The notes beneath the pieces were generated by a model that made no database searches, was not told where the DNA came from, and saw only the letters and a list, made by a program, of their open reading frames with translations. Of a stretch of 64,000 nucleotides of DNA, positions 14,785 to 63,907 are shown piece by piece (position 1 is the stretch's first letter; each line of letters begins with the position of its first letter). Position numbers and translations under genes: made by a program. The DNA lies in NCBI GenBank assembly GCA_963969395.1, contig OZ017802.1, positions 20,739,410 through 20,803,409 of the forward strand. The letters run 5' to 3'. Source of the stretch: Pseudoscleropodium purum (lineage: Eukaryota; Streptophyta; Bryopsida; Hypnales; Brachytheciaceae).

Positions 14785-16490
14785 GCATGTAGGTGCTTTA
14801 TTTCCACCCTTGGAATAAAATATGCACAACCAGGTTCTAGTGGTTGTTGTCGTAGTAAAATCCTAATGGGTGTCTAACAACCTGTAATCCAATTGTGCCT
14901 TCCAAGCAACAAATCTTTTGTTGTTTGTTCTACCTAAACTTTCCTTTAGACAATTGCTAACCAAATTCAAAAGTTAATGAAAGAGGCTCGTTTTGGCTAT
15001 GACAACCAAAACTAAAGACACTAAGGGTTAGTCAAGTGGAAAGATTCAAGTAATCCAAGTTGTAAAGCTGAGTTTGCCCTTTCCAAAATGATAAAGTAAT
15101 CTCAATTTGGCCTAATTCCCTAGGAGATAATTGCGGATGAAGTTTGATTCTAGACCCACTTACTAAAACTTCTTCCATCAATTGCTAGCAATCTAACTAT
15201 TGAAATTCAATGCTGATTCTTGGTTTATTTTCTATTTTTTAATTTCCTAACTGACTTTTGAGTTTGGAATGGTTTGATCAACTCTAGTTGACTTTCATCA
15301 CATCCTAGCCCAATTCAATTCAAAATTTCATCCTACTCTAACTTCTACATTTCTAAATTGATTTGTGAATTCTTAGTGATTTTGGAATCCCAAAAATATT
15401 CTCTTCAAGATTCCACCTCTAATTTGTTCTTTGAGTATCTTTTGACCTAGCTAGTAAAAACCTTTAAGATTTTTACTTTTACTTGAATTTTTGGGTTTTC
15501 TTCTGATTGGTAAAACTAAGTAATTTATTTTTGATGGTCTGATTTTACCTTTCTATCAAGATAAAAAAAACCTTTCTTATTTTTTATCCTCGCAATAAAG
15601 ATATTTCAATGGTAAATTTTGACCATTAATTGGTTCATTAAAATTTACCTTTTTACTTTTATTTTGGATGGTAAATCACTTTGCCTTTCACCTTTGGCTT
15701 TTACTTTTGTCCTAGATGCTAAATTCTTATAGGATTCCTTTTAATGACTTTCTAAATTTTCATCCAATTTTACCATGAATTTTCATCTATGGTAAATTTG
15801 GATAAATTCTAACTAATTGTAATGGGTAAATATTTCTAAGGGGCTACGGTAATTTTCTAACTACTTTTAAGTTATTTTTGAATGTCTTTTAACTCCTATA
15901 ATGTAACTCTATGTTTTGACTTTTAATTCAACCAGAAATTCCTATGCTAATATTTTTGATGGAAATATGAGAAAATAAGGATAAGAAAGTTAATAACTAA
16001 CCTTGGATTCCATGGTGTCAAAAATTCCATCAATGTTAATGATAACTTGGCGTTTGTGATGCACTTCCTCCACTTCCATTTTGATTCTTGGTATTTGTGT
16101 TTTGGATTTTTTAGAGCTCTATGATCGTGGAAATACGCCAACTCCTTTCTTTCCAATACCTTCTTCTTTCTCTTCCAATCTATTTCTTTTTCATGTCTTC
16201 CTTTTCCTTTGAGATATTTGAAAGAAATCAAATCAAATCAAATCTATTGCTAAATCCTTTGCTAATTTGGTTTGGAATCAAATGAACCTTAAGCCAAGGC
16301 TTCTTTGACTTCTACTAACTACTAACTAATCTTAGAATCTTCCCAAAGGTCAACTATTCTTTTATTTGTTTTTTCTTCTTGTCTTCTTAGCAAAATTCAA
16401 CTTGCCCAATTATCCTTCAATGGATGGCACACATGCAAACTAAATCCTCCTTCCCTTCCAAATACAAAGTCTAACTCCCACTTAAGTACT
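14785..16490 (+). repeat. Leader block (P3) of the non-coding LTR-like family
   Basis: Direct copy of 920-2570, with the shared phrases 'gtagtaaaatcctaatgggt' and 'caattgctaaccaaattcaa'. It is followed by unrelated sequence with GC-rich islands and then by LTR-like block Q4 (18900-20760), so the leader-variable-LTR order is kept. The 94-codon minus-strand frame at 15947-16231 lies in the repeat and has no recognisable function. Confidence 0.6.
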
Positions 16491-18899: not shown

Positions 18900-20760
18900 G
18901 GCCGTCGCTCGCCACTATGGGTCTCTGTATGGGGACCCTTTCAAGTAAATCTAAATAGGAAAATTATAAAGGGGATGATAGCTTCGCACCCTGGGAGGTT
19001 AATCCCAAATTTCTAACAATAGTTCAACAAAGATTTTGTTGAAGGAATTTGGAGGCTTGGATCTAACCCAAATACTCCTAAATAAGTACCAAACGTTCAA
19101 GCAAGAAAAGTGTTAGTTGGAAACTCACAATTTCCGGTTAGGATGGAACAATAATACTTTAAACTCACAAATTGCGGAACTTTGGAGGATTGCAACAAAC
19201 ATCACCTCCCAAATGACTTGATGACTCACTTTTGAACCACAAATTCGTACACAAGACTCTAAGGGGAGATTTGCAACAACCAAGTTGTGAAATCTCTCTC
19301 CAACAAGGCCTTAAGTAGAATTGGTTAGTAGACCAAACACCACACTAAAAATGGTTAGTTTTGAACACAGAAAAAAACACAACAATGGTCAATCTTTTCT
19401 AAGGGGACCCCAACGTCCTTTGGAATGGACTTAAGGAAAACACAAAAGAAGACCAAGAGAGCAATTGGAAGCAAGGCTTCCGCACAAGAATTGAAAGCAA
19501 GAGTTTTTGGCCAAATGAACAAAATTCCAACAATGTGGCTACATTTGGCCAAAGTTTAACAAAATGAAAAGGGGTGCAAAGTGAGGGGAGGAGGAGGCCT
19601 TCTATACTTTTCCAAGGCCCCCTTCCCCCCTCAAGCTACCTAAGTCTACTCCTAAGTAAATCCAATTTAACGAAAATCCAAATTCTACACTACTGCTATG
19701 TGCGCTTTAACTTTTGGAGAAATGCTCCAAATGCTAAACCAATTGTGCCATTGTCTTTAGAAGGCCCAAATTAGCTTGAAGGACTTCCTAACCCTAATTT
19801 CCAAACTATTTTGCAAACAAAAAGCCAACAAATTGCCAGCCAGTGAAAAGATAGAAAATCCAAATATTGGAGTTTGTCTTTTCTTATGGTTTTGACTAGC
19901 CTAGGTTGTCTAGAAGGTCTAAGATAGTAAGAAAAAAAAATCCAATTTTACTTCATTCGGACACCGTATGCACTTGGTACACTAGTCAACTTGTTGAATG
20001 TTCTTGAAAACCATTAAAATTCGGTGCCGCCACCAATTCTTGTACTTGTCGGTGTCATAAATGTCTTGAAATTTGGCCAGGTGTTTATTTAAGCTAAAAC
20101 AAACTATCCTAATTTTTAGTGTGATTTTACAGCTACTTAGATAATTTCTATGACTTTTCAATTATCGATAAACACGGTTGACTTCCCATGGAGTCATCTT
20201 TTGCAATCTAGAAAATTACTAAATTTTTTGGACAACGTCTAGGAAGTTTCCAAATGCTAATTGAAAGCTTACATATTTACTTGAATAAAATGTGGGGAGG
20301 TCTAAATTCTTTACCTCTTGATTTAATTCCTCTAGGCAGGAATCATTCCTATACAAAGGGAATCTTCATGAACCAACTTCGCCATTGATTTCCTGGCATG
20401 TTTTTATGATAAAAACGCCTTCCTTTATCCTTCGGTGTATGTCTTTGAGAATCGGTGGAATAGGATAAAATCTTGTAATAATCTAAAATAAGGGTCTTTT
20501 GTAACTGTGTCTCCTAGGACTCAAATCTATCTCAAACTCCTAATTGACATACTAAACACTTATCTAGACTTTGGAAATGGTAAATGAAAGTGCTTGAAGC
20601 ACTTGTAGATTCTTGAGACTTAATACACCGCAATCGTAGGGACTTCTATCAATTACAATGTTAATACACTTTTCAGGCCTTTTGGACCCCAAAAGGCTAT
20701 AAGAAATGAGCAGAAGCAAAAAAAAAAATTTCCAAGGCTGAGGTGACAACTACTGGGCTC
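18900..20760 (+). repeat. LTR-like block (Q4)
   Basis: Closest in text to Q1: 'gaggattgcaacaaacatca' near 19182, 'aaatgacttgatgactcac' near 19210, and the promoter phrase 'ccttctatacttttccaagg' near 19598-19617. Q1 and Q4 have drifted clearly apart, so the insertions are old. No coding sequence. Confidence 0.6.
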
Positions 20761-21805: not shown

Positions 21806-22903
21806 ATCTGGCCATCTCTTCTCCAAAATGCCTTGATTCTTTTACCAACCATTGGAATTTTCAAAGGAGTCCCATCTAACTCTTGAAGTAAGTGCCATTT
21901 TGATGCACTTCTACCATTGCATAGGGCCCAAACCATCTTCATGTAAATTTTTTGATAGTGTTGTATTGATGCTCTAAGTTGCTATCAAAGACAATCACCC
22001 AGTCTCCAATATGAATATGTTTGGTCTTTAGTTAATGAGTTTTATCAAATTTCTCTTTGTTTTCTAATCTAGCTACCTTCAACTTTTCCAATGCTACCTT
22101 TTGGTCTTGAGGCAATCTCTCAAGTTGTTTTATTCGAAGCTCTAGTAACCTCTCTCTTGCGATTCCATCTTCCCAATCCAAAACCACCCACATAGACATT
22201 AAATCCTTTGCATGTATAATAGGTTTTGGACCAATCATAAGCTCAATTGGCATATAACTAGTTGTAATGTTGTGTGTGGTTCTAGCTTAAGCCATTGCTT
22301 TGGTTTTCCTTCACATGCTCTAACCAAGGCATTGACGATGGGAGGATGATTCTTTTTACTCTTGCCATTTGCCTCGAAATTGTAGGCAGTTGTAAGCTTC
22401 AATTTCACCCTATATCCATCAAAAAATTCTCTTGCTTTTGTTGCATCCAACTCTCCACAATCTGCTCTCATCCTACCGATGTTGCCATATCTATTGAAAA
22501 TATCCTCCAATATGAATTTGCAAACTCCGTTTGTAGGCTTGGTTCTTAAAACTCGACCTTTAACAAAATTAGAAAGCTCTTTTTTCGCCAAAACAAGGTA
22601 TTTCATACCCTACAATTCTAATGGCATTGTAACCAAGTCAATCACCCACTGAAAATGCATAGCAAGTGGATATGTAGGATGTAATTCATCTCTATGTCTC
22701 ACTTTGGATTGCAATTGACATTTAATGCATGGAGCTACAAAATCTTCTACATCTTTATACAAACCCTTCTACCAATATCTTTTTTAGATTTTATAGTAGG
22801 TAGTCCAAATCCCTTTGTGCCTTGTCCAAAAAGTATCATGAGACTCTTTGAGAACTTGACTCTTGGTTTATAAATCATCAACCATCCTCAATGGCACTCC
22901 ATC

Positions 22904-23053: not shown

Positions 23054-24244
23054 ATCCTTCCTCTTTAGCCTCTTCTATAGAAAACTATCCCTTAAAAGAT
23101 ATGCATAACATTGGTGTGATGGTGTTTGATATCCTTGAAGGTCTTATCTAACCAACCTTCTTGCTTCTTTAGAGTGCTCAAATAAATGTCAATGTCCCTT
23201 AACTTTCTTTGATATAGTTCCTCTTTGAAAAGTAAGTCATCACCGCTTGAACTTGCTCCATCTAATGCCAAAACATAACCATAGTCTTTTTCTTCATATT
23301 CATCACTAATTTCATGTGCCTCCATCTTGTCTACAGTTTAAAATAGTTTATGTCTGCTTTCAGTGCACCTAAAAGCTCCTTCACTTGTGGATATGCTCTT
23401 TGATGCTTAGTGGAAATTCTTGCCCCAAATCTTATAGCAAACAACTTGCCTTCTTCATCATCTTGACTAATAGTCCAACCTATAGCAATTGGACTTGTAT
23501 CAACTATAATAATGATTGGCTTACTACAATTACGATCAACTTATCTTAAGATTGGCGGAGATTTTAAAATTTCTTTTAGTCCTTCCATGGCCAAGTTGTT
23601 GTCCCCACAAGAATTTGGTTTCCTTCTTCAAAAGCTTATACAATGGATTGGCTATGTGAGCAAAATGAGAAATCTAAATTTGATATAAGACACAAGCTTC
23701 CAAAATCTTCCTTTCTTTGATAATACTACTACATGCTTTCATTTTAAAGCTAGCATCTACTTTTTCAGGGTTAGGTTTCCTGCCATATCTTCCACATAAG
23801 TATCCCACTACCACAATCTCATCAACACCAAACTTGAACTTATCGATAGACAATGTCAAATTCACATCCTCAAGCCTCTTCAAAATCTTTTCCACGTCTT
23901 CAATATGATTTTTCACAAATACTCTGCAACCATCATCATCTATTGTCAAGTCATTGACTCCTTCGCAATCCTTGATAGGTATATCATTTACAAAAGGTAT
24001 AGTTTTCTCAGATACAAAATCTTTTAGAATTTGATTCATGGCATTTTGTATATGTGCCACCAAGTTAGTGGTTCCTTGAAGCAATGTGCACATCCTAACA
24101 AGTCCTAATGAAGTCTTCATGGTTGTCAGATCCTTGCTTTTTTTGCAAGTTGAAACTGATCATAACTAGAATATAAATCTCCTATAGAATAGATGGCATG
24201 CCTTGCAAATACTTCAACAACTTCATCCACAATTGGCTACCAAG

Positions 24245-25230: not shown

Positions 25231-27130
25231 TGAGGTATGATCAAATTTTTTTTAAAGTAGTCACAAGCTAAAAGACACCCTGCCTATGCTGAATTGAGTA
25301 AATTAGATATTGAAGAGTCAAGGGGCATAGGTGGGGTTTGAAGGACAGGTTGGTCATCCTTGAAATTCAAACTACAAAAAAAGAAACAAGTTAGAATAGG
25401 GAAAGAAGCCAAGAGCACAAGTTAAACTTAGCCACTCTATATTCAAGCTTGCACATGAATACTCCAAGTTGTTGAAGAAGAAAGAGAAGGCAAGAGGTTG
25501 GAAGTGACTCGATTGCCAAGGAAATAATTGACTTTCCCACCACCTTTTGGAAGTCAAATACTAAACAACAAAAGAGTGGAAATGTGGAATCAAAGGGCTT
25601 GGGAAACATTCTAAGGCTAGCTATATTAGAAAAAAATAGAAAAGGATTAGTGAGATTATTTAGGCTTACCAATTGGTTAGCTAGTGTCCCCAAAGGGGAT
25701 TTTCTCGAAAAATTTGGATCTAAGAAAATCATTAAAAATCAAAGAAAATTAGAAATGAAAAAATAGAAATTAGCAAAGGAAGTTGAAAGGAGATAGGAGT
25801 CGTTGGAATGCATATTCAAGATCATCTTTCAAAAAATAAAAATAAAAAAAAATAAAAAAATAAAAAAATATGGGAAGTGATGGAGGAGACTTACAACAAA
25901 GCAATGGAATTGGATGTGCAAGCTGTTCACAAGGAATAGTACAATGTAGAGGTAAGAGCTTAAACATAACTTTTTAAGTAAGTTTAATATTTTAATTTAG
26001 TATTAATTACCCTTAGGAAATCAAGATCATAGTTAGGAATTAGTTCATAGTAATTAAGTGAATTAGAAAGTATAATCCAAAATAATAATCAAATAGAAAA
26101 TTTCTATAGCTTTCAAATAAGACATTAAAAGTAAAAATCCTATAAAAATTGATTAAACTACAAGTAGTTGAAGTTAGTTTAAATAGTAGATGAAAGTATA
26201 GAAATTCATCCAAAGAAATTTTAAAATCATTTTAGAATTTACATTAGAGTAAAAAATCCAAAGTAAAAGAAAAACAAAAGAAACTAGAAGTGTAAATAAT
26301 TTTCAAATTTTCAAAGTAAAAAAGACTTACATAAGAATTTTGATGAACCGGACAATGGTCAAAATCCTCTCATAAATAAATTTACCTTGGTGTCAAAAAT
26401 AATTTATGCTTTAAATGTTCTAAATTAAACCGTTACTAAGAAAAAATATTAAAAAAAATTAAGAATATAAAGACAAGAAGATAAATGAATAACAATTTAG
26501 TAGAAAATCCAATAGAAAGTCTTGAAGGAAAATTTTGAATTCAAATAGAAAGAATCTTTAAGAAATAATTTTTTAAGATTTTTAAAAAGTACTTTTAATT
26601 GGGAATTTAGACAACTATTGTAGAAATTGGATTAGGACAAAATTTCAATTAGAAGAATTTAAAAAAATCAACCAAGGTTGACCAAACCTTGTCAAGTCCA
26701 AAACTTATCTAGAAAATAGAAAGTAAAATTTTATCCAACAAATAGAATCCAATTTTGATAGTTAGATAATACGAAACTATTAGATGAAGTTTTGGATGGT
26801 AAAAGTGTCCAAACTTCATCTTCAAATTTTTTTTAGGAATCATAGTAGAATTTTAGGATCCTTATCATTATGAAAGAAGCAAAATAAAACACTACAAATA
26901 AGCTTTGGTCCATTTTAATTCTTCAAAAAACCTCTTAATCTTCAATTAGGCTAATTTATCTAAATATATTTGCATTCATTACCAATTTACAACTTTAACT
27001 TAGTAAAAAGCTTCATTGCTTGGAAGGCAGCTTGTTGCTATAGACCATCTCACCTATAGGTATTAGATTGATAGAATTTGGTTGTGCATGTTTGGTTTCA
27101 AGGGTGAAAATCAAAACACTCACAAATCTT
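25231..27130 (-). repeat. Inverted leader-type block (P4)
   Basis: The right part (about 26760-27120) is the reverse complement of the leader blocks: 'cattgcttggaagg' near 27014 mirrors 'ccttccaagcaatgg' near 1037, and 'gttgtgcatg..tt' with 'caagggtgaaaatc' follows. The left part is A-rich and poor in recognisable words. No gene seen; the frames at 25372-25967 have biased composition. Confidence 0.5.
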
Positions 27131-27199
27131 AGGTGACAAAATTGGGATTCACAACGAGCGTTTGGCTATGGATTCTAGGACTAAAATCTGATTTCAAAG

Positions 27200-29429: not shown

Positions 29430-32400
29430 TATGGCAAATTGAATTTCAGCTTCAAGATACCACCCTCAAGAAGACACTTGACTTCATTAAAGCTAAAACT
29501 TAGGGCATGAATAAAAAGATCAACTCTTGCATCTAATTGGCAGACTCCAACAAATAGAAAGTACAAGTGCTTGTAATTTGCCCATTGCCCTCTTTTGCCT
29601 AGAGCTTTTAGTGACATCTCTTTAAAATATGGGCAAGTACATTTAGGAAATGCACCTATTGTGACCATATATTGTTCAGTATTTGAGGTTGAACTTGAAT
29701 CCAGGGTGATAATGCAGCCTAAGCCAAGGTGTGGTACCATGGTTATCTTACAAACAGTTGCCTTCAACGTCAAGGATGAAGCACAATTGTTAGCTTGCTT
29801 TGTTGTAGGTGATTTAGGATTTCGTTGAACCTTCTTGCCTGACCATGTACCCGTGTATTCTACAATAGAGTGTGGAATTTCAACACCTAAAACATCAGCT
29901 AATGCATTATGGTTTCCAAATAACCTGCGCGGGAACATTTCAATACGTAGTGGAAGATGAAAGTCTGAGTTCTGAAGATTAGAAATTTCTTTTGGAATAA
30001 GACAAGTTCCAACTTTGATTGGCAAAATCTCAAGAATGATGGATTTAGAAAGAACCCATTTACGTCTAAATCCGTGCATGCAGCGCAAAATGTCGTCATT
30101 GTAGAAGAAAAATTACATTGTCTCAATTTTGTTCTTCCTATAATTATCCATGTTGCTAGTGTATGTAGGTGTAGCGGTTACTTTACCTCCTTGCACTATC
30201 TTTGCAACACATTTTTTTCGAGTGATAGCCTACAATGCAAAACACACCTTCGAAGGCATCTTACTCAAGTAGGCAATATGCCACTAAGTTTCATTACAAA
30301 CTATTTCTTGAATGCTTCTCACTTGAGAAGGTGGCACTTTTGGAACAACTAATATTGGGTTCAATGATTCCAGCAACCCCATGGTGTCTTCTTGTGCAGA
30401 AGGTGACGTTTCTTCAACTATTCTGTCTAAATAAATAATAGGTGTAGGTGCTCGATTGGCCCTTATTCCTATACGAGGCTTGGAGAAATTCACTTTGTCA
30501 GAGCAATGTGAATCAAGTTCTGAACTAGGCGGAAGATTTGGCATTCACTTTTTAGATCCAAAAACTTCTTCACCTTCCAAATGAAGTTCCCTAGTACAAT
30601 ACTCTTGAAGACCCAGTACTAATGCCATGGCATTGTTCAATCCTTTCGGATTACCAATATGTTGGATATATCTTTGTGCTATTCAAAGGAGTAGTTTTTC
30701 CTTCCTTGGACCATTCCTTGGATTCTCACCTTTTAGAAACTAGTGATATTTTACCATTTGCATGAACGCTCAAACGTAGTCATCCATTGTGGCCACATAT
30801 AGATTGTTTCCTTGTTTTCTAGATTGTTGCATCCATTTGTTATGGACTGTCTCAACAAGTAGGAATGTGCACAAGTTCATTTGCAGATAGTCCCTATACA
30901 TCATAGCTTGTGTCAAGCTTGATTACACATACGAGAAAGAAAAGATTGGTAATTTAGGCATGAATTCTCAACTTTGTACAAGAGGTATACATCAAATGAA
31001 AGAACAAATCCTTCTTTTCATAAAAAAGATGATTCACAATGCACAAGTAAAGCACAGAAGTAATATATGAACTTTCAAAAGAAGAAGTAAACAACTACAT
31101 TTAGAATGTTCAAGAACCTCACCGTGTCCATGAATGCTCCCCATTGTCTGTAGTGAAAGTGCCAAAATGCTAACTACAATTCTAGATGACAAAGACCCTC
31201 CTAAGTTGCGGCTCTCAAAGAATGCCACCATGTTCGAATTGCATGGTACCTACTCTCAAACTCTTGCAAAGAATTAGCATTTTTGTACTACTTACACAAC
31301 TTTCTATGTTGCTCTTGAAGGTCACTATGGATGTCTACTTTTGTATTCTTCTCCAATGATTGAGTCCTGTGAAACAAATAGGTGTGTTCTTGATTAAGTA
31401 CGGGGTCTATTGGATTACCACTTCCATAAACAATTCGCACCACATTCCAGTTTGCTTGAGCCAAATCAACCATGAAACCCTTAAAGTAAAGCAAGTCAAT
31501 GCCATGTCTACTCATGACAGAGTTTAGATTCTTCCAGAAGTCCCACTGGGCAACAACATCCTTTGATTGCATATCCCATACTGCAATAGTCATAACATGG
31601 CAATACGTTGGATCATAAACATGACACGCAATTGTGGTCCACTACTTCACTCACCCGACATGATCAAATATGATCCAAGTGTCTTCAAGGTCAAAAACAG
31701 GTTGCATTCGCGTCACCAAATCCACGCCACTCCCCAAACCCACTTTTGACATTTTGAAGATGAATACCTTGTCAGAATTTGACCCTTATCTAGGAAATTT
31801 GTTCTCGTGAACAAATGTCTAATTGCTACAACCCCACAACTAGGTGATGCTATCCATAACTCCAAAACACCGGAAATACTTGAACAATGTGGCTTCATTC
31901 TGAATACTCAGGGAACTTATGAATTTTCATTTTTTCAAAATAGGCATAAGTTCTTGTATTCCCAAATGGGTAGGTGTGGATCCTTCTGGTCAAAGAAACA
32001 TATCTCCAAAGAACTCCTTGCTTGCTTCCAAAATGATAGTAGAGTTAGTTCCAGATGGATTTTGCTCAACATGGTCTAAGATGAATGACCGACTTTTCTC
32101 TTGTGAGTCCCAACAGTCCCCATCTTTCACTAGGTGACCGTGAGTACCAAAATGAAAACAAGCTCGACTCATGTCCTTCTACCCAACTACATAGTGTATT
32201 TTGGTAGGGCATTGGCTAATGTAAGTTGGTACAATCGAGTACATCTTACACATGATAGTAGAGCCCAGTAGGAGGATAGCACCAACCTTGAAAGGAACGA
32301 GAGAACAACCATTCTACTTAGTCTCGTTCACAATGGCTACATGGTACTCTTGAGCAAGGTAGTCACAGACTTGGTTCTCACAACGAAAATGCCCGCCGCA

Positions 32401-33115
32401 GGATGCCAATCGAAATGTCAGACCATCTACATTCTTGATGTTCATTGTATGAAGATTGGACCAAATGTGACTGTTGTAGCGCCTCTCCATTCCATTGAGC
32501 AACTTAGCTTGATAGTAAGTAATCAAGTGATCTCCGAGAGCAGGAAGCTTAAAGATTACATCACCATTAAACAAAGAAAGAACAAACTTGACTACAAAAA
32601 TCTTAATAGAGTTCTAGTCTACCTTTTTAAACAGGTTCTGGAAGCCTTTGGTATGGCAAAGCTTCCTCAAACATGGAACTATAGATGATGCAGAAGAAGA
32701 TGAGGTGGGTGTCTTCAACGTTGCAGATGGCATGAAGGACATGGTAATCCCATGACTAGAAGGAGAGGACATATGCTTCAAGATCTTGTATGGTGGTGAT
32801 GAAGCGTCAAAATTGTCACTTTCAATAGAAATTACCTTGACACCAGGTTTGATTTTGATAGGATTAGGCAACAGTGTCTACAAGGTGCTTGTGCTAGATA
32901 CTCTAGTAGTAACTTCTTGAGTGAAAGCTCTTGTATTAGATTGAGGTAAGCCATATACTAAATATCTATTGGAAGGCAAATGCCATTGCTTGCTAGAGCC
33001 AAAGACAACAAGTTCTTGATGTATTGTATGTGTAAGATCACTAGTTGACGTGTCAAAAACTTCTTCATCAATATTTAAAGAGTTCTCGGCAAGCTGAAAA
33101 CGAGCACTTAGTCAA
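29430..33115 (-). pseudogene. Degenerate Mutator-like transposase with SWIM-type zinc finger
   Basis: Fragments in minus-strand order: low-complexity N-terminus (33115-32614); zinc-binding-like region with CGGHFRCENQVCDYL (32574-32314); MSRACFHFGTHGHLVKDGDC (32172-31990); a transposase core segment (31593-31288) with FWKNLNSVMSRHGID, then GFMVDLAQANWN carrying a candidate catalytic D, then YLFHRTQSLEK; a C-terminal segment with CTCPYF followed by GKRGQWANYKH (30088-29429). A DDE core followed by a CxC...CxH (SWIM) finger is the layout of MULE transposases, which cut and paste DNA. The third zinc ligand C is Y here, and several stops and frameshifts separate the fragments, so it is inactive. 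The 219-codon frame at 29429-30088 is the longest intact piece. Assignment to MULE rests on domain order; terminal repeats were not found. Confidence 0.6.
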
Positions 33116-33660
33116 CAAGCATTGACGACAACATATTCTAAGTTGCCTATTGGAAAAGAATTGGTATGTGCTCTCCGCTTGCCCTAACAATTGCCATCAA
33201 TTTGATGGTCAATTCAAAGTTCAAATAAAACCGCAACAATGTCTCCTAAATTGTGCAGTACTAAACATTTGTAGGTAGAACAATTTCATAGTATAAAAAA
33301 AGATAAAAAAATAACATAGCACTAGACACCTAGTACGATTGGTATAATCAATAATCTCAAACCCAAAATTGTATACCTAGAATCAAACAATCACCAATGA
33401 ACATATATATGGTCTAATCCCCCAAAGACATTGTGGTAAGAATTGGTGAGAGAACAAAGTAGCTAATACTTACTGCGCTCATCAAACATAGGCAATGGCA
33501 CTCTATGGAGTAAAGGCAATGGGAAGTATGTTTATATTGATGAATAATTCATACACCTTTGGTTAGTACATGTAAGATTGGCATTGTATTTGAACCATCA
33601 GTTTAATAAGTATGCCAATTCGTCATGTGGAATCCAAGGAATGCTAAAACCAAGATGTAA
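33116..33660. other. No gene seen
   Basis: AT-rich sequence between the transposase relic and the next MITE; may hold its 5' untranslated or terminal region. Confidence 0.35.
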
Positions 33661-34321
33661 GAGCATCGCCATCCATTCCCCTTAAACAAGGCCGGGGAAA
33701 TAGGTGTGCCGGAGCCCTTTCCTTCCCGGCTTCCTTCTGGCCAAGTGGATACCCAACCATCCCCACCCAATTCCTTGACAAAACAAGTCAAACACACACG
33801 TGTAATAATTTGGTACAATTAACACACTCGAACTGCATGTTGTTACAGTCATTGGAATATGGAATAAAGATGAAAATGGAAGAAAGACCAAAGGAATGGA
33901 AGATGAAGAAGTTGTGAGCTTCACTTCAACTAGGAGTTGTGACACAAAATCTACAAGAAATGGGCCTAGGTTGCGGTTTAGAGTTTGAAGAATGATTTCA
34001 TATGTTAAAAAATAAAAAAGCAAAAGTGTATTGAGGTGTGCTTGAGGTGACCTCAAGCACACCTCAACATACATTTACTTTTTTCATTCAATTAGAATTA
34101 AAGAAAGAATCAATACGGAAAATGACAAAACGCCTATTGACAAAATCCGTGCCTTACAGTCAATACACCTAGCTTGGCAAGGATGGGGTCCTAGAGTATG
34201 GTGGGGCAAATTGGCTGTGGGTGGGCTCAAAGCATCCATGGTTGGGTACCTAGTGGGATTCTAAAACCCTCCAAGCCACGCCCAAGCCCAGGCCAAGCCG
34301 CTTCCCAATGAATGGATGCTC
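33661..34321. mobile_element. 661-bp MITE flanked by TAA (PIF/Harbinger-like)
   Basis: Both ends start GAGCATC inward, and the similarity continues imperfectly (GCCATCCATTC against CATTCATTG). The flanks are the 3-bp direct repeat TAA (33658-33660 and 34322-34324). A TAA/TTA target duplication fits PIF/Harbinger (Tourist-like) MITEs, though the end sequence is not the textbook one. The GC-rich end regions contrast with an AT-rich centre. The 130-codon minus frame inside it (33682-34074) is taken as chance. Confidence 0.6.
34031..34067. repeat. Palindrome with 18-bp perfect arms
   Basis: Arms begin TTGAGGTGTGCTTGAGGT and meet at one central base, with no loop. It lies inside the MITE at 33661-34321 and may be the joined ends of a decayed nested element. 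Confidence 0.85.
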
Positions 34322-34324
34322 TAA

Positions 34325-35065
34325 TAAGAATACAGTCTTTATTATTGTTTAAACATTGATTGTGAAGGTCAAAATTTAATAATCACTAACTAACAAAATA
34401 TTAGCCTAGTAAAGGAATGTATCTTGACTAAATCATATGAATACCTCCCTTTGATATGTGGCGGTGAGCATCCTATTACACCAACATTCAATGCATATGA
34501 ATGATATTTACCTCAAACCTGACACCACGACAACGGATAATAGTGACCTAAAGAAACATTTCCTCACATGATTACATCCAAGACAAATCCGAACCTGGAT
34601 CACAAGGTGGATTACAAAAAACAATTCCTTGATAGTAGATTTGGTTCTACAAACTAGAGAGCCATTGATCTTCTTAAATTTTATGAGGATAAAAGACCAA
34701 TCTTCTGATTGCATACGCAACCTGAGCCTGAAGAGGAGGAAAAATCAAAGCAAGCCACGATTAGAGACCCAAACCTCAGATGTTCCCCTTGAGTCACCAA
34801 AGATGTCCCCCACAACTACCTTGCCACCTCCATGTTTTGACCTACTAGAATAGGACACGAAGTTCGAACAAGCATGAAGATGGATTTTGGAACCTCAAAA
34901 CCCTCATAAAGTTGCTAGAACCCCCTTGGCCACGTCCAACTCATTCAAACTCCTTCCCTCTCTTCCCTGCAAAGCTTTGTTTAGGTCTGCACAATGCATC
35001 CTCCAAACTTTGATCTTTGCTTCAAAGTGATCATCATCTCCAGAAACTAATACTTGTATGATTTC
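34325..35065. other. No recognised gene
   Basis: A 74-codon plus-strand frame (34629-34853) rich in K, R, P, S and T lies here, but no family is recognised. The sequence leads into the tandem array upstream of the methyltransferase-like gene. Confidence 0.3.
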
Positions 35066-35070
35066 CTCCC

Positions 35071-35640
35071 ATTTCTTAGCATTCTGTCCACCCTGAACCC
35101 TTCCCTCTTGTTTGGTTTTGAATTAGAAAGGGGACCGTGAGGTCCCTAAGTGTATGAATGTGTTATATAATTGGAGTTCTTGACCTCGAGAGGGGAGGGA
35201 GAGTGACTGCCCTCTCTTAGCATTTTGCCCACCTCAAACCCTTCCCTCCTATTTGGTTTTGAATTTGAAAGGGGACCGCAAGGTCCCCAAATGTATGAAT
35301 GTGTTTGATAATCAGAGCTCTCGGCTTCAAGAAGGGGTGCTTGACCTCCCCCCTCTTAGCATTCTGCTCACCCCGAACCCTTCCCTTGTGTTTGGTTTTG
35401 TATTAAAGAGGGGATTGTGAGGTCCCTAACAATATGAATGTGTTATGTAATAGAAGCTTTTGGCTCTGAGAAGGGGGGATTGACCTCCCCTCTTAGCTTT
35501 CTACCCACCTCCAATCTCTTCCCTCCTGTTTGGTTTTGAATTCAAAAAGGGACCATGAGGTCTCCGAGGGTAGGTATAAGTTTGTAAGATGTGAGCTCTT
35601 GGTACTGAGAGGAGGGATCAACCTCACTGTCCTTGAGTCG
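35071..35640. repeat. Four ~140-bp tandem repeats
   Basis: The phrase 'ttagcattctg.ccacc' starts units near 35076, 35217, 35358 and 35495. Each then has 'cccttccct', 'gtttggttttgaatt', 'gggaccg.gaggtccc' and 'gtatgaatgtgtt'. The array ends about 140 bp before the first ATG of the degenerate gene at 35778, where it could once have been promoter or 5' sequence. Confidence 0.8.
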
Positions 35641-37689
35641 TGGTCATCCAAAGTGAAAATTTATCTAGTTTTGTTTTGGGTTTATAGGAATTTGTAAGGT
35701 TCTGGACTATATGCATCACTTCCAACCTTGTCTGCTCGTGATATCGAAAGGGCGGCATTTACCTCCCATCTTATAACATGATGTCGAATATCAATTTTAA
35801 AAAGTTGTGTGGTAATAGACTTCAGGGTGTTGCTTGCGAAGAAGCAAGTGAAGAAATTGCCCCTGAACCTAACCTGATAAGTCCACCAATGGAGCCTGGA
35901 TAAGTTGATAATTGGTCCATTTCTCCTGAGATGCCTAGTGATGGTGATCTCGACAACCGGCTAGTTCTGACACCAGGAGGGTCAATAAACGCGATAATTC
36001 CAAACCTAATCCTAGAGGATGATAGGTTGTCTAGTGGAGGGCTCACCTCTCTTCCACAGTCTACCTATTCTTTTGTTGGTTCTCTTCAAGTAATTGAGGA
36101 TGGGCCCTTGTTACCAATTTTGGAGGAGTATTGCACCTATAACCACAAGGACGTAGTGATAGCGTTGATACCACACAAAGATGATGACATTCTTATTTAC
36201 TTTTGTGGACACTATCATGCAATCACGAAGGCTTGTGTTTGTGCTCTTTAGGATTGTTTATATATCCTTGGAATTGCTTGTACTGAATTGGCAATTTATA
36301 ATGAGATATAATTTCTTACACACTTCTAAGCTCTTCATGCTATTTCTTGGAAATTTTATGAATGTCTTTTCGATATTGTTGTAGATTACTGAGGTTGTTA
36401 ATGATGAAGTCTTGCCACAAGGGACTTTTGATTGTCATGAGCAACCAAAGATAGGCACTAACGAGACTGAGAATGACGTTCAAGAGGTTCAACTTACTCT
36501 AGTAGATCCAGCCTTATTCAAAGATGACATCTGGAAATCTCAAAAAATGAACACACTGTCCACTATATTGAGTTTGAGGTTAACTACCAATGATCTTTCT
36601 AGGATGAAGATTCCTTTGTATAGATTGGTTCCCATGCCTATGGTATGTCCGACACTCTCATGCGACCTGAAGTTGCTTGAGAACTAATTCAGTAATAGAT
36701 ATGAGAAGGGGGCTAGAGTTTTCTACGTCTTCATTTCAGATGAAGAAGGCCAGAGCGGTATCTTTTTAAATGCAAAGAAGGAGGAATGGAGACTACTTTG
36801 GAATAATGTGAATGATCAATTCAATTTGTATCTCAAGTCGAAGGTTGTGTTGAAGCACCTAGTTGACTACAAATTCTTTGTGTGTGACGGTAACCATAGG
36901 TAGATTGCATGGATGAATTATATCCAAAACAAGCATTCAATTGAGAGAGATTGGCATATTTGTGTGGACTCCATTGTACTGGACCGCAGGAAGTGTATTA
37001 GTGTCGCAATGTAGGCCATGCATGATATTAATAAATGAGACTACCTTTCTTTTCATTTGTTGTTTTTATAATCATATACTTCTAGGATTTCAAATATTTG
37101 TTCCTAACCTTTCTAAATTTTAAGGATTCTTATCTCAGTTTGCTTTAGTAATAGGCACACAAAGAACTCTCATGTGAAGACGAACCTTGTCCACACTTTA
37201 TTTTGTGTTTAGCAGCACAATTAGATGGAGCTGGACAATTTCCACAAGCTCCTTAGTAATGACAAAATTAAGCTATGTCAGAGAAACCCTTGCACGAAGT
37301 AGTACACCATGCCTGTTGAGGTCTTCACCTATTTTATTTTTAAAGTATGTTATTTCACTGAATGCAATATCTTCCTTCATAGACTTCTGCTTTATACTAA
37401 TTGTTTTGGCAACATTTGCTAACTTCACTTTTAAATTTTTCAGCAAGACATTGCAACTGCAGCCAACTTTACTATGTGCAAATACAATGAAGACACTTCT
37501 AGCTACAAGGCAACTCTAGAAGGAGTGGCAGTAGCAATGTGGGTGGCAATTAAAGATTCCACACATACTTGTGGACAAAAGATATCCAAGATTGTCTCCA
37601 TTGCTTTTTTGTAGTTGGGAGCTGTAGTACAATTTTTATAAGACAAAACCAAGGCAATTCCAATTAGGTTCGTTCAGGGAGAACTCAAG

Positions 37690-39420
37690 TTAGCTTAGTG
37701 TTTTAATTAGCTAATGTCACTTTGTAGGTAAATTATATCTTTAATCTTAATATATTAGGGTATTTTGTATCTTTCATATTCTATTTAGGAATGGGAAGAA
37801 ATTCTCTCTCTAGTTTCTGTCCAATTATAAATACAAATTTCTAACCACTAAATCTGTCTTGGTCTTATCTTAAGATAAAATATAAATTTAAAAAGTGTAA
37901 GTTAAGGGCACCGGCATCCACAAATCTCATACTTTGAATTCATTGAAATATATTACAAATATATTCATTTGCAACCTGTATCACACAATACATATTTGAA
38001 CTTTGAAAATTCGGTTTAACCGAAAACTCATGAATCGTTTTGCACAAATATCATTTTGCTTCGAAATCGCTTTAGGCGCTAATGTCTTAATTACTTAAAG
38101 TAAATGTACCATATATCCTTTCTAGGAATTGAAAACAACCAAGGACATTGATTAAACAATTCTAAAATTTTCCTTAAGGAATCTATAATATGCTTTGTTA
38201 AATTATTTTAAAGTATTTTGAATTCTTCCCTTATCAAGGCTCCGGTCTTTATTTGAAAATATTCTTTCATCATTTAGCATCTCCAATTGATCTTTCTTTG
38301 CTGCAAATCTTTTCTAACTTGTCTTCTATTGATTCTTTGCTCTTATCCTCTATCTTAATGTTTTCCTTTTTAGTCTCACATTCTACTTTTGCGTAATTCA
38401 ATTGGTTACAAAATTTACATTGCTTCAATTTTAATTTAATAGGTTCTTTATCCATTTTACATCATTTGTATTCTCATCATATTAACTCTATAGTCAAGCA
38501 ATTGATTTCTCTCAATAAAATATTGCTACAACATAGAAATTCTCTCAACTTGCACTTTAGATAAACAATTTCACACACCAATATCACATAAGAATTTAAA
38601 TACACATTCAAACATTAATCCATGTATACATAACTTCAATTGGAATACCATTTATTAATCATATGGATAATCATTCCATAATTAAAATGTACATCAATTA
38701 TTTACAATTGTTCAATAATTTTTATTCGTTAGAATTCTAAACTCATTTCCCAACTTCAAATAAATCTCAATTCTTAATTTTATTTCCAACATATATATCC
38801 ACTTGTGACACAAAGATATTCCAATCTTTTAAATAAAAATAATTTTCAATCACTGGAATTAACAAATTAATTACTAATTCAATATTTTGCTCCACTTTTC
38901 TTCCCCTCTCACTTTAAAAATTGACACAAAGAATTTTCTTAAGAGACGAAACACAATTGATAGACAAAATTCTACTCAAAAGATAATAAAAATTCTCTTA
39001 AAGAGATTCTCCTTCATAAAAAATTGCTCACGGCAATGTAACACCAAAATGAAATGTAATGCTTAAAGCAATAAAACTAACACTTAAGTGAAATAAAAAA
39101 AATCACAACTCAAGGTGACAATAAAAAAACATAACTTCACCACACAAAATTGTAAGAGAAAATTAAAAAGAAAAAGAGAGAAGAATGGGAGAAAAACCAC
39201 TATTTATCACCCTCCATTCTCAAAAACACCCTTTCAAATCTCTTGATAAAAAACTGTCACAATTCACAACCGTTCAAACTAAAGAGACTTTTCACATTTA
39301 AACATCAACTATCACCACATTCACACTTTATTGCTCAAAATTTTGAACATAAAACCCATTTTATACTAAAAAAAATAGAATTTTACTATAAAATAAAATT
39401 GTCTTGATTACAGAAGCAAA
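37690..39420 (-). mobile_element. AT-rich insertion with zinc-knuckle relic
   Basis: This stretch separates coding-like blocks of the ParB/methyltransferase gene and carries none of its sequence. On the minus strand a 61-codon frame (38455-38270) contains CKFCNQLNYAKVEC, a retroviral-type C-x2-C-x4-H-x4-C knuckle with Y for H, followed by K/E-rich sequence. A TATA-like 'gataaatag' on the minus strand near 39205 could be its promoter. The simplest reading is a decayed, non-autonomous retroelement in an intron. Matching LTRs were not found. Confidence 0.35.
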
Positions 39421-40674
39421 CTTCTTACAGGAGGTACTCATTATGGTTTTGTAATTTCTACTTAGTATTTGTCAATTGAAATTCAATGAAAGTGTTGTTT
39501 ATGTTAAACAAAAAAACTTTTGACCTTGATCTCAACTCTTTGCAAGTTGAGAAACATTGGAGCAAATTTGCCGTTTCTGAGTTAATTCTTGACAAGCTGT
39601 AGATGATCTCTAGTGCCATTGCGAGTCGAGCTCACAAGGTGAAGTGGCTCAAGTAGATGAATGCCTCAGGATATACTCAAGAGACTCGACATTTTATAGA
39701 CCATCTAGTGAATGAAGATCCACTAGCCACGTTTCTCACAAAAGCATGCTTTTATATCCAAGTAAGAAAACTTGGTTCCTGCATCCAAACAATTCATGTG
39801 TTACATTATAGTCTTGGAACTTACCTTTCTTTTGAATTAAAAGTGCATCATTTCCTTTCTTCTTTTTCATCCTTTTCATTTTATGTTTTTTTTGTAGTTG
39901 AAGGAGGCAGTCACAAAGATGCTCGACTCCATCATTTGATCGAATGACATTCCAATCAACATGTCAGTTCCAAAGGAGCTACAAACACTTGAAGAATATG
40001 TGGAATCGTGGAAGATGAAGTTATGGGACATTGCATATACATGGGCCTTCAAGGGAACCGTCCTTTTCAAGAAGTTGGACTCTTTCAAGGACTTTAGAGG
40101 GTCCGCACTAGTAGTGAAGTGGTTTTATATAGATGAATGATCTCGCCTACAATCCCATTTTAATTATTCTGAGCTCATGTGCACTACATGGATGATTACC
40201 ATTATATATTTTTGCATTTCATGTTCACAATATGTCTTATAGAATTCCACTTACAAGAGTAATTTTTGTTCAAACATGGCACGTCTCTCTGTTCCATCTT
40301 TGCATTCATCTTCCATTCTCATTTTTGAAATTCTTTTTTGTAATCTCTTTAGGTACATCAAATTCAAATTGTATGGCAAGAACACCATTAAGAAAACTAA
40401 CTTGCTACTGTTCCTTACCACGTGGTTGGACAAGTCTTCACCGGATTGCATGTTCACATTGGGCAGTTGAAGAACTAGATGAGTTTTCATCTTCAAGCTT
40501 GCCCGTGGTATCTAGAGTGCAACTTCGGAACCATGCTAGCAAAAGAGGAGTTTCTCTTTCAAACATTGAAGGAATCCATTGTGGTGGAGACAGAATTCGA
40601 TGAATTTGCAAGACTAGATCTTGAAGCAAAAGCCAAAGCCATCTTGAGAAGGGAGGCAACCGATAAGGAGAATC

Positions 40675-40915
40675 CCACATTTAACTACTTTTGGACTATT
40701 CAATGAATTGTAGACTATACATCAACAAATCTCTTGATGTTAACATCAAGAGATCTCTCAATGATTGTATAGATCTCTTGATATTTGTATAGATCTCTGA
40801 ATGTTTTGGACTGATCTTCCAATGTATTGGATTATCTCCTGATGAACATTTTTTTTCCTTGTGGTTACTATTATTAATTTTGGACTTTCAAAAGTCCAAA
40901 AGTAGTTAAATGTGG
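40675..40915. mobile_element. 241-bp MITE inside the methyltransferase gene
   Basis: Ends match inversely over about 23 bases, starting CCACATTTAACTACTTTTGG on the left. A perfect 26-bp palindrome lies inside at 40729-40754, and the right end has a further small hairpin. The coding-like frame (REATDKEN before, KEERWEEAKKK after) resumes directly beyond it, so it inserted into an exon. No obvious target duplication. Confidence 0.7.
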
Positions 40916-42565
40916 CATGAGAAGGAAGAGAGGTGGGAGGAGGCAAAGAAAAAGACAGAGGAAAACTAGAAGAAGAAAGAAGCTACCAAGGTTGAGAAGG
41001 AGCAAGAGAAAGCTAAGAAGGTCACAAAGAGGAAGGCCAAGACACCAGTGCAAGACTAGGCAACCAATGGAGTGGACACAAAGGTCACATCGTCAAGATT
41101 TTCACTCACTCAAAAGCGCTTGGTGCATAGGCTAACCCCAACAACAGTCAACTTGGATCCCATTCTTGACATAGATGAGTGCATTTTCAACTTGTCCTTG
41201 GCTAATCTCCTGACCAATAAGAAGGCCTTTGATAAAGTCCTTGGTTTTTTGACATGGTACTCTTTTCATGCTATGATGTTTCACTTACTTCTCTTTTAAT
41301 TTAGGTTACATGTTTGTAATGAAATCATGTATTCACCATTGGCTAATATCATTAATTATACAATCTTGTTAACTACATTATTTTTTACTTGTCCTTCCAA
41401 ATTTACAACCTTTTCTCAAAATTAAATTTTGTCTAATTGTTACTTCATTCAATTGCCCTATAGCATTTTGGTGATAAGGATCGGTACTTCGACAAGGTCT
41501 TGAGTACACAGCATACAATGGACTTGATTATTGTGGATGTTCCCGAAGGCCTCCACATGCCTATTGTCTTGGCACCACCTGCACCTATTTCAAAATGGAA
41601 TGAGTTCTCATCTAATTAGTTGGTTCCATAGGGGTATCTACATGACAAGGTTGGCCTGTTGGTCATTTATCCTACCCCATTTAGACCCCACCAAAGTCAA
41701 CTACTTAGATGTTATAAGTCTTATGGCTTTCACATACTTCTTACCTGGCTTGGCATGAATTATCTTCATCATTTTGCCAGTTGATCCAACAAAGACGGTA
41801 ATATACATATTAACCACTAGTCCAATTTTTCATCTGTTTCAATTTCCTTTCAAAGCAGTTCTGAATATTGTGTCCTACAAACTATGCATTTTGTCATATC
41901 CTCGGTGATCAAAGGATGAAGATCAAAGATGGACTTGGAATTCTGATTTTAGTACATTCCGTCACATACTACCATGGGTGTCAATGTTGGTTGAGATGAT
42001 ATCCTTCAGAACTTATGTAACAAGGATGACCTCTCCATGAATGGTAACATTCCATGGTGGGGTCCTTGGAAGAAGGCAAGGCAGTTTATACAGATGCTCG
42101 TGGAAGGACTATCTGAACCAAGAGACATAGTGGTTGACTGCATTGTAGCTATAAGTTTGTCTATCGGAATCTTTTTTGGAGATTCACTAATACTTGCAAT
42201 GACATTCTCCCTCTGGATTATTCATCTAACTTTTATTTTTGATAACTATTGGCTCCACCATTCAAGCTTGTTGTGCAACACGTCGCCACATTCTTGCATT
42301 CAAAGAAGACAAAGCAATTTTTGATACCCTTATTACACCAATTATGCGTTCATATGTGGATCCTCAGCCTCAAGAGCCATGCTCTATTGTTGCTCCTATG
42401 GATTTGGATGAAGAAGATGTACCGATCCAACACATTGTTAAGCAAACTCGATTTAGTAAGTAAGTTCCCCTTTTTGTTTCTTCTTTTCTAATCGATGTGC
42501 CATTCAAATTGATTATGATCTAATACTTCACTTCATTGTGTATGTAGGCAAGCCTAAGAAATGAG

Positions 42566-60319: not shown

Positions 60320-61015
60320 AACTCCCTTCATTATTGGTTTCAAATTGTCCTAAAGTTAGAACATTTAATTATTCATCCCCTTGATTGACTCCCATTGACT
60401 CCAATGTTTTTCCTTTTGGGGAGCGATGACAACACAAATGTCATCAAGGTGACACAGGGCCAGGAAAAAACCTTGTTGTCTCATGAAAATTGTCGAATTT
60501 TCTTAAACTCTTCCCAGTCCCCAATAATACCACATTCTCTGGGCCCTATCTAATGCTAAGCTTAGCCCCTGAAGACAGTTGAGAAACCCCTCCGATTCAA
60601 ACCCCCCATGCAAATGTACATGACAGGAAGTACACGGACCAGTCCAAGAGCGACGAATCAGAACGCAGGGATTCCCCCCAGTGTGAACGCAGCCCAACTG
60701 ACGAAATTAGGGTTTGGGGCCCAAGGCTCCCGCCTTTGCAGCTCTGTCCGACTGTTTCCATTCCCGTGCAGGCGTTGCCTTCCCTCCCTTCCCCTCTCGC
60801 ACCTCATGTTTTTTCGTCGTTACGTTTCTGATCCCTGTCGCAACTCTTTCCCGGAAGCCCTCCAGCCGGCTCGCGGATCCCTTCCCCAATTCAGACCAAC
60901 TCTGCGGTGGTGGTAGCATTGCGAGGCAGGGCGGCCATCGCTGCTGCAGAAGAAGAAGAAGGAGGAGAAAAGGCGCTGCAGAGGAGCCGGCCCAGGGGCG
61001 CTGCTGCTCGGCATC
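60320..61015 (+). promoter_or_regulatory. 5' region of the GIP1-like gene with telo-box
   Basis: Base composition rises to GC-rich from about 60590. A telo-box TAGGGTTT lies at 60708-60715, followed at once by GGGGCCCA, which resembles a site II (TGGGCC) element; this pair is known from promoters of plant genes active in growing tissue. No clear TATA box was found. If transcription starts upstream of 60806, the leader holds a short upstream frame (ATG 60806 to TAG 60916, 36 codons), which could damp translation. The start site is not determined here. Confidence 0.45.
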
Positions 61016-63907
61016 ATGAGTGCCACCGGCGGTAGTCGAGGGGGCGGTGCTGCTGCCGTCGAGATTCCGGCCAGCACGAAGAAAGTGGTGCAGGACCTCA
61101 AGGAAGTTGTCGGGAACAGCGAGGAGGAGATCTATGCCATGCTCAAAGAGTGCAACATGGACCCGAACGAGACCGCACAGCGGCTGCTCAACCAAGGTGC
61201 GCTTTGCCTCCCATCGTGCGCACCATTACGCTGGATCACTTCGGTCTCTGAGTGCACAACCTAATGTTCTGCGCTTGGGCATGAGAGTGGTTGGAGTGGG
61301 GATTTGGAATGGTCGCTCCGTAGGGCGTGGCTGTATGTGGTATCGTCCAAAACGAAACTGCTGCAGCGGTAGAAAAGAGTTCCTGGTTCTGGAGCCCTAT
61401 GTCGAGTGCAAAGTGACGCGGTGTTGAAGTTGATCATAAAATGTGGTCGGTGGAACTTCGTTTCCTTAGTGCGACCTCTCGCGCTTGTTTGTGGGTTCCG
61501 GTCGCAGCTGGGGACGCCGGCACAGCTATCTGGTCTATTGGTTGCATTGATTGGAGCTTTTGAGAAAGTTTTTGGATGGTTCGACTAAGTCACAAGATGA
61601 ATGATTTGCATTGATCCCTGAACCATGGCATGGAAGATGCTGTTGGCAGTCATCGAAACAGATTGATGTCCCTCTTCCATTGTTCGATGGGGCTCTTAGG
61701 TTTTAGTAGTTCATGAGAGTTTGGTCGTCAAAACCCCTGATGGAATTGTTTTCTCATATTTTCTTTCGTCGAGGCTGATTTTTTGTCTGGTGGCGAGGAG
61801 GCTGTGGGTAGAGTCGTTGATATGTGTACTCTCTTTTTGGTTGATTTTTGCAGGAGGTATTGGAGCCGCACCCTTTGTGTCTGCACTGCTATCGTGCTAT
61901 TTTGTGGACCTTTCAGACCTTTTTTCTGAGGTTTCTGCATTAGGACGATCAGTGTTGTGAGCATGAAGCGTTGGGGAATGTTGGGGTGAAGTGAGTGGCG
62001 ATGCTAACGGTTGGTTTCCGTGTGTGGTGTTGCAGATCCCTTTCACGAGGTGAAGAGGAAGCGGGACAAGAAGAAAGATGTGAGTAATTTGAGCATGGAA
62101 TTTGTGTTATGCTGCAGAGTGGAGTGAGATTGAATGGAGAGATTGATTGAAGTGTGAAGGCTTGCTGACTCGTTACTTATACCTGATTTATCTGCAGAGC
62201 GGAGGGTTGAAGGAGGCTACGGATGTGAGGGGGCGACCAGGGAGCGGGGGCAATTTTGGAAGGGGAGGCGGACGCAGTGGTGGTGGACGAGGAAGTTCGT
62301 TGCCTCGTTTCGGTTCGCAAGGTAAGTGTGATGGCCGTCCCAGAGAATTATGTAGTACGTGTGCAATATGCCGGAATGCACACATGGCATATCGATTCCA
62401 TGCGAAATGTTGGGATGAAGATTCCGATACGTGGTGATGGATAGGTTCTCGCTGTTCCTTCGTGACTGTCGGGGAGGATAGCATTGAACAAGACCGATCT
62501 GGAAGGGGTGGTTGATGACTTTCTCTTGGACATACTCTTGCACTGTTACAGTTTTTATCTGTAAGTCAGTTGGTCTAAGCACAGCATGTCGATGGGGCAG
62601 TCCTCGGAAGAATGTTTGTCTTGTCAGGAAACACTGTGGCATGTAATTATGCGTGTGAACTAGTTTTATGTAGCGTATATGGGTTTGAATTTTCATATGC
62701 AATTGCTGAGGCTTTTCTTTGGGGGGTTTGCTTGTGTGTTGTGTGGAATGGTCCAGAGCACGGCGGAGGGCGAGGTCGACCTGATGGAAGGGAGAATGGC
62801 ATGCACCCCAGTTCTCGTGGTTCGAGCGCAGTTTCCAGCTCAAGTCCTGCTCCTGGTCAAGCAAAGCCAACATCGGCAGCGCCGACGTAAGTATAAGATC
62901 ATTCTTGTGACGCTTTCTGAACATCTTGATCGTCAAAGTCTTTGCTGCAGCAACAACTGACTATATTTTGACGTTCCTTTGCTCATTAATTTAGTGTCGA
63001 AGAGGGATGACTTCGCTGAACTGTTACTGCGTTATTTCTTCTTTACCACTGTGGTCTCCATGTTCCTTATTTCCCATTGAGATTCTCAACGAATGGTGCA
63101 CGCTACACGATTTGGGCCTTTCCGTATCGCTCTCGCGTGGCTCCGTGCTATGGATTTTGGAACTGACGTAACATGCTATTTTCAGGGCGGTACCACCCTC
63201 AACAACTTCTCAACCAGCTGCAGCACCACAAGCTCAGGGTGCGAGCTCAGGAAGTGGGAGTTTTTCGGGAGTTCCAAACGGAAGCAGTGGGTATGTGAGG
63301 CCTGCTCCAGCTCCCCAAGGGGCATGGGCGTCTGGGCACGGCACAATGGCTGACATTTTGAAAGCACGGGCTGCCCCTTCCCCCAGCTTCCAGGCGCCGA
63401 GCGCTTCTCCTGCCTTTCCTAGCGCCCAACCCTCATTGAGTCAGTCTTATCCAGCAGCAGCCTCGTCTGTACAATCATCGGAAGCATCCGAGTTTTATTC
63501 GTCCAGTACAGACCCTGTACTTGATTCCTCTGTAGATTCTGGTGGCGGAGGCACCCAAGCGGCAATCGGAACGGTGGGTAACCAGCGACCTATCGGCTCA
63601 GTTACGTCGAGTGTAGAGGCAAGCTTAGAATCAGATGTGGCAGTGGCTCAAGCCGTTGCCTCCGAACCAAGTTCAGTGGTAGGAGCAGCAGACACGAGAG
63701 ATGCGCAGACAGAGGTGGAGGTTGCTGAGGAGGGACCATCTTCTCCTCCGGTATTTTCACCAGCTCCTAGTCCAGATGTGAGCGTGGAAGAAGCTAGCAC
63801 AATCACGGAAGGTCAGCAGTCTGGTGGGCTGAGTGCACTGGGCGGCAGTCACTTTAATGGTCGGCCCCTCTATGCACCCCTGCAACAGCCCGTTGGCACA
63901 CAGAAAG
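61016..63907 (+). CDS. GBF-interacting protein 1-like (GIP1/DUF1296) protein, 3' end outside window
   Basis: Five exons with standard borders: 61016-61196, 62036-62079, 62198-62321, 62757-62886, 63186-63907. Introns start GT and end AG (839, 118, 435 and 299 bp), and codons split across junctions join in frame. Visible product: about 400 residues. Residues ~16-75 form the GIP1 N-terminal domain, with STKKVVQDLKEVVGNSEEE, MLKECNMDPNETAQRLLNQ and, across the first junction, DPFHEVKRKRDKKKD. It is a helical, UBA-like fold. Then come Gly/Arg-rich stretches (GRGGGRSGGGRGS), and a Ser/Pro/Ala/Gln-rich region with SGHGTMADILKAR. GIP1 proteins are nuclear partners of G-box-binding bZIP factors; the RGG-like part may bind RNA. 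The start ATG is the first in frame and gives the family's usual N-terminus. The last exon has a stop at 63925 if unspliced, but AAAG|GTAGCG after PVGTQK is a plausible donor and relatives are longer, so the gene likely continues. Confidence 0.9.

Follow-up and report, generated by a model that had tools for sequence, protein, structure and literature searches.

Why would a moss genome hold a gene that joins a ParB-like domain to a DNA methyltransferase-like domain of bacterial type, and what might such a gene have done? The locus lies in a stretch of 64 kb from Pseudoscleropodium purum, here called the window, in which a preliminary description had proposed a plant pseudogene of this kind. 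We read it, with a probability of about 0.68, as a decayed copy of an accessory gene from a large DNA transposon of plants, divergent to a MULE-type transposase, and probably as the land-plant counterpart of an accessory protein of algal transposons. That the window is plant DNA, as had been proposed, follows from a GIP1_N domain at 60917–61264 (E 2.6e-21), a family which we take to be plant-specific.

Between 35.8 and 42.6 kb, the + strand carries a run of open blocks with many in-frame stops. Good splice signals border some of them (tttcag, ctatag or atgtag just before a block, gtaagaa just after one) and are absent at other edges, so that the splice-like borders noticed earlier stand only in part. 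Joined and read through, the blocks found a single outside protein, P0001 (E 6.1e-8; one of 6210 candidates at E ≤ 10), to which a two-row profile added P0002 and P0003. The features are:

35781–36251, + strand: upstream open block with one internal stop, at which the gene had been proposed to start
36388–37035, + strand: ParB/sulfiredoxin-fold exon (IPLYRLVPMPMVCPT ... VCDGNHR) with three in-frame stops
37156–37338, + strand: exon after the ParB exon (HTKNSHVKTNLVHTL ... YTMPVEVFTYF) with three stops
37444–37700, + strand: possible exon, acceptor tttcag
39507–39761, + strand: possible exon, donor gtaagaa, preceded by about 1.8 kb of A+T-rich sequence
39901–40142, + strand: possible exon with which the C-terminal half would begin, colinear with the N-terminus of the P0001–P0003 profile
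40345–40670, + strand: exon with WLDKSSPDCMFT and CPWYLE, frameshifted
40672–40918, no strand: insertion with 32-nt inverted ends that interrupts the gene
40979–41259, + strand: Lys/Glu-rich linker exon, aligning with the linker of P0001–P0003
41455–41784, + strand: methyltransferase-like motif IV region, with LIIVDVPEG at 41524–41550 (canonical form DPPY)
41935–42141, + strand: motif X followed by the first half of motif I (NIPWWGPWKKARQF ... DIVVDC)
42245–42461, + strand: C-terminus with the second half of motif I and a stretch resembling motif II (GSTIQACCATRRHILAFKED), placed by hhalign to an N6_N4_Mtase profile
42548–42564, + strand: possible terminal exon (KPKK, stop), acceptor atgtag

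Three of these blocks (35781–36251, 37444–37700 and 39507–39761) had no relative matches in tblastn and profile searches of the window and are uncorroborated as candidate parts of the gene, which leaves the proposed upstream start with an open frame but no relatives. The match of 39901–40095 to the P0001–P0003 profile is not significant (i-E 21), and the block at 40345–40670 is matched by P0001, P0002 and P0003 in tblastn (E 3e-5 to 1e-3). A repeat search found the arms of the insertion at 40672–40918 to be 91% complementary and spaced 183 nt apart, and it may be MITE-like. All six peptides noticed at the outset (VCDGNHR, LIIVDVPEG, QFIQMLVEGL, DIVVDC, IGSTIQACC and HILAFKED) lie on the + strand. 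LIIVDVPEG sits exactly where it had been placed and HILAFKED ends by 42310 as described; VCDGNHR (36880–36900) had been put one codon late, at 36883, and QFIQMLVEGL begins at 42082. Judged from its reading frames, the window copy is a dead pseudogene, in agreement with the preliminary description.

The N-terminal domain is the best preserved part. A database search with the ParB exon gave 190 of 211 candidates at E ≤ 1 (best 3.5e-77), and a profile built from 120 outside proteins, with the window left out, had a sole match in the six frames of the whole window, at 36436–37035 (i-E 3.5e-87; a partial match inside this interval was reported separately at the same site). The window exon retains 44 of the 46 columns conserved at ≥ 90%. 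DGNHR, which we equate with the nucleotide-binding motif of ParB (DG-x-H-R or GERR-type), is present in the window and in 104 of the 120 relatives. The predicted structure of one relative, P0004, is ParB/Noc/Srx-like, which by this model puts the domain in the ParB/sulfiredoxin superfamily fold. The likeness to the nucleotide-binding domain of ParB, Noc and KorB thus lies in the predicted fold and in DGNHR at the place of the nucleotide motif, while alignments of ParB, Noc, KorB and PadC with the model show only 7–19% identity. In the Pfam scan of the 120 relatives, PF02195 (ParBc) was absent from the 24 families listed at E ≤ 1, among which were weak rows for DUF1015 (22 of 120, best 0.002), KMP11 (five, best 6.6e-4), DndB (two) and DUF6551 (two). 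A search of PDB sequences with the ParB profile gave nothing relevant (a lone KMP-11 row, E 0.087). In BFVD, the top row for the model was a giant-virus protein (E 4.9e-4), which alone among 157 rows reached E ≤ 0.001, and row 10 was a phage ‘DNA methylase’ (E 0.022); as matches to a model, these show a fold in common, not an origin.

The C-terminal half is more difficult. Because the window blocks are too decayed and divergent for Pfam, the analysis was routed via their relatives. P0001, P0002 and P0003 all carry WxDxxSxDC, CPWY and VPEGLPVPG, and the two longer-reaching ones, P0001 and P0002, have IPWRG...DIVxDL in common. A profile built from these three proteins, again without the window, was searched against the six-frame translation of the 64 kb. 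It matched this gene and strand only, and its matches follow the order of the profile, with i-E 0.0022 at 40345, 2.6e-5 at 41455–41607 and 0.0025 at 41935–42141. These values are modest, unlike that of the ParB profile. P0001 and P0002 terminate at or just past motif I, near the DIVVDC/GSTIQACC break in the window, a pattern that a shared intron would produce. None of the family's own relatives extends to 42245–42461.

We aligned this half by hhalign with a template of 27 N6_N4_Mtase-type proteins, made up of E. coli YhdJ and 26 of the 50 viral loci found with it; 20 of the 27 have a DPPY-type motif, and all three members scanned match PF01555. The probability was 94.6 (score 56.2) when only the relatives were aligned and 96.0 (score 63.1) when the window headed the alignment, against scores of at most 20.3 and 17.4 in 60 column shuffles and of 17.9 and 17.2 for reversed templates; control probabilities were at most 1.5 (shuffles), at most 0.7 (reversed) and 0.6 (the ParB alignment). 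DVPEG is placed on DPPY, the relatives' EKS...DIVVDLSASTG and the window's GSTIQACCATRRHILAF fall on X-I-II, and 42245–42461 aligns with the GTT...GRKFIGIEI stretch of the template profile. The order IV ... X, I, II is thus that of the beta class, from which, in our reading of the alignments, the C-terminal region derives.

The catalytic motif IV, (D/N/S)PP(Y/F/W), was not found: all four sequences (window and P0001–P0003) have VPEG, preceded by D in three and by Y in P0003. P0001 and P0002, which extend as far as motif I, have altered forms of it (DLSASTG and DLTTTTG). The Pfam comparison with PF01555 and PF02195 that had been suggested gave no match in P0001–P0003, in the 120 relatives of the ParB exon or in the blocks of the window, and the support for the two domains comes instead from hhalign and from the predicted fold; the single window blocks gave one DUF5914 row (E 0.17), and P0001–P0003 gave weak unrelated rows. 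Given the missing PF01555 match and the altered motif IV, we class the domain as methyltransferase-like or methyltransferase-derived, not as a member of N6_N4_Mtase, and modify the earlier assignment to the beta class in this sense. The other searches of PDB sequences gave nothing relevant either, and an AF2 model of the methyltransferase half from the three-row alignment was unusable (pLDDT 36.9). PHROGs searches with eight relatives returned weak rows, most of them within the charged linker (the best at E 0.0017, function unknown); a ‘ParB-like partition protein’ row for P0001 and P0003 was discounted for its location in the linker, and a second family of that name matched P0007 (E 0.15).

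ParB-methyltransferase fusions occur in phages, and the gene had been thought to be acquired from phage or bacteria. The searches gave no backing to this origin. Pattern scans of viral contigs with P0001, the ParB profile and the C-terminal profile confirmed no relative, nor did a scan of prokaryote genomes with the ParB-family pattern only; in phages, a DNA search with the ParB exon gave three chance-level rows (E 0.7) and tblastn with P0002 gave none. Within these scans, the idea of a phage or giant-virus gene whose sequence can still be recognised was rejected. Two canonical phage DNA methylases considered as ParB fusions were also set aside, with N6_N4_Mtase present and ParBc absent at E ≤ 0.1.

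Upstream, and on the other strand, lies a second decayed gene:

29432–32295, − strand: transposase-like gene with stops, divergent to the ParB gene; DDE-like block at 31123–32295, SWIM-like CTCPYF...YKH at 29432–30901
533–837, − strand: second copy, itself diverged, of the transposase-like protein's C-terminal end (CTCPDF...CKH)

tblastn aligned the second copy in two pieces, with identities of 40.0 and 37.5% (E 8e-12). From its motifs we take the gene at 29432–32295 to be Mutator-like (MULE-type). The motifs expected of a MULE (DDE core, C2H and SWIM zinc finger) were noticed by eye: FMVDLAQANW in the DDE-like block, then a C2H-like place, with CTC...CKH in the 533–837 copy. The joined blocks matched no Pfam family, the DDE piece alone gave weak unrelated rows (Apiosidase E 0.015, MNHE 0.095), and the DDE block had no PDB match. 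About 4.1 kb (32295 to 36388) separates this gene from the corroborated ParB part. A search around the gene pair turned up neither terminal inverted repeats nor target-site duplications, and a joint scan for 22-base terminal repeats (at least 17 matches) with exact 8–10-base target duplications gave none in the real sequence and none in 10 shuffles, a result that says little on weaker or longer-range ends. One candidate pair of long ends (25940–26743 against 45227–44412, inverted, 55%) was rejected: the left member is part of another repeat of about 1.6 kb, which occurs three times in the window, and the right member does not match the other two copies. With no repeats or duplications found, the membership of all parts in one element, which we infer, rests on adjacency at a single locus, and the earlier suggestion of spread with mobile elements gains an adjoining transposase-like gene and a probable element setting but no element ends.

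Could the two halves come from unrelated elements, a ParB-like and a methyltransferase-like fragment lying side by side? We retrieved no single protein with both domains, as this would predict, though the length range of the ParB search could not have returned one. Yet all listed profile matches lie within 6 kb, on the same strand and in the correct order, and confinement of the ParB and C-terminal matches to one gene in this way is more than chance. A single tblastn alignment of P0051 also covers the ParB exon and the next window block (36499–37338, E 1e-60), and the fusion is reported from Ectocarpus (PMC12477816), all of which makes chance adjacency very improbable. Less remote, though still unlikely, is a host gene family, a ParB-methyltransferase-like nuclear protein gained long ago and now a pseudogene near an unrelated transposase-like gene. 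That the ParB exon is strongly conserved in the 120 proteins and that no terminal repeats were found would suit it, but the copies are many and diverse (22 single-linkage groups at 70% identity among the 120), some database matches come in pairs on contigs of equal length, and the same divergent arrangement is described for Ectocarpus Sola1-1 (PMC12477816).

Whether intact copies would write 6mA or 4mC, as had been supposed, is another matter, and the activity of the domain is doubtful on its motifs. An accessory protein that methylates its own element, with DVPEG as a working variant of motif IV, would be compatible with the element setting. In its favour stand the motif order of the beta class, the retained D (in three of four) and second P of motif IV, and VPEGLPVPG, identical in all three relatives and so under constraint; the Ectocarpus protein, moreover, is predicted to make 4mC or 6mA (PMC12477816). 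Against it, the first proline and the aromatic position of motif IV carry other residues in all four sequences, P0003 has Y for D, and the two relatives that extend to motif I show DLSASTG or DLTTTTG there, which leaves active writing a minority possibility. Given these changes to motifs IV and I in the relatives, we lean to a non-catalytic role: binding of DNA or cofactor, perhaps for marking or anti-silencing, without normal 6mA/4mC writing, seems somewhat more likely than catalysis, while the identity of VPEGLPVPG leaves unusual chemistry possible.

Under the preferred reading, that of a transposon accessory gene, an intact protein would have a domain of ParB fold, joined by a charged linker to one derived from a beta-class amino-methyltransferase, and would be encoded divergently to the Mutator-like (MULE-type) transposase. 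By analogy with the algal proteins, the ParB domain might recognise or clamp the element's own DNA, and the methyltransferase-like domain might act on that DNA, leading to escape from silencing or to transposition. On a more far-reaching reading, less likely than not, land-plant transposons would widely carry one protein that combines a ParB-type clamp, possibly nucleotide-switched, with a methyltransferase-derived domain; the latter would retain the motif order and, at its active site, a VPEGLPVP loop that is non-canonical yet strongly conserved. Such a protein would serve element marking or anti-silencing with different or no methyl transfer. If intact copies exist, plant transposons would use a prokaryote-style DNA clamp and methyltransferase-like system, it could be tested whether they mark or protect their own DNA outside 5mC, and mobile elements would be a possible source of reported plant 6mA/4mC signals. 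Should the enzyme be dead, a plant transposon with a conserved ParB clamp would still have a new route of self-recognition.

Among known systems, beta-class N6_N4_Mtase proteins such as E. coli YhdJ agree with the C-terminal region in having IV before X-I-II, and differ in having DPPY for DVPE, an unaltered motif I and a Pfam match. Plant MULE accessory genes (mudrB, VANC) likewise stand as a second gene beside a Mutator-like transposase, with a possible anti-silencing role; to our knowledge their proteins carry no ParB or methyltransferase domain. The window transposase is presumably Mutator-like, not Sola1 as in Ectocarpus. A land-plant case of the pairing was not among the open-literature matches listed, and subscription papers may mention one. 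The closest system is Ectocarpus Sola1-1_Ec32, whose 1104-aa protein has a ParB-like and a 4mC/6mA-type methyltransferase domain; its gene and the transposase lie on opposite strands of the 21.5-kb Sola1 element, and such accessory proteins are reported from green and red algae too (PMC12477816, Genome Biology 2025). The earlier statement that no plant system with this pairing is described thus holds for land plants as far as searched, while the pairing itself is already described for algal transposons. Compared by description with the algal proteins, the moss gene has the same two domain types and, as in Ectocarpus, lies on the strand opposite to a transposase-like gene; it differs in its plant genome and its VPEG motif IV.

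A repeat of about 1.6 kb occurs in three copies in the window, two on the plus strand (910-2564 and 14776-16414) and one in reverse orientation (25563-27143). The two plus-strand copies are 70% identical, lie in the same orientation and are spaced about 12 kb apart, and could be the long terminal repeats of a retroelement. A separate repeat family of about 1.2 kb is found at 3677-4854, 12363-13592 and 19112-20759, its copies being 75-80% identical and present in both orientations.

Two minus-strand segments are probably retrotransposon remnants: 23674-24159, which gave a weak match to RVT_1 in Pfam (E 0.0083, under the gathering score), and 22235-22609, which was judged integrase-like by eye and had no match in the Pfam scan.

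Immediately upstream of the decayed ParB-methyltransferase-like gene, on the side toward the divergent transposase-like gene, lies a tandem repeat (35074-35562; 3.5 copies with a period of 139). At the far end of the window, a gene for a GBF-interacting protein 1-like (GIP1) protein begins on the plus strand (60917-64000), within DNA that is richer in G+C.
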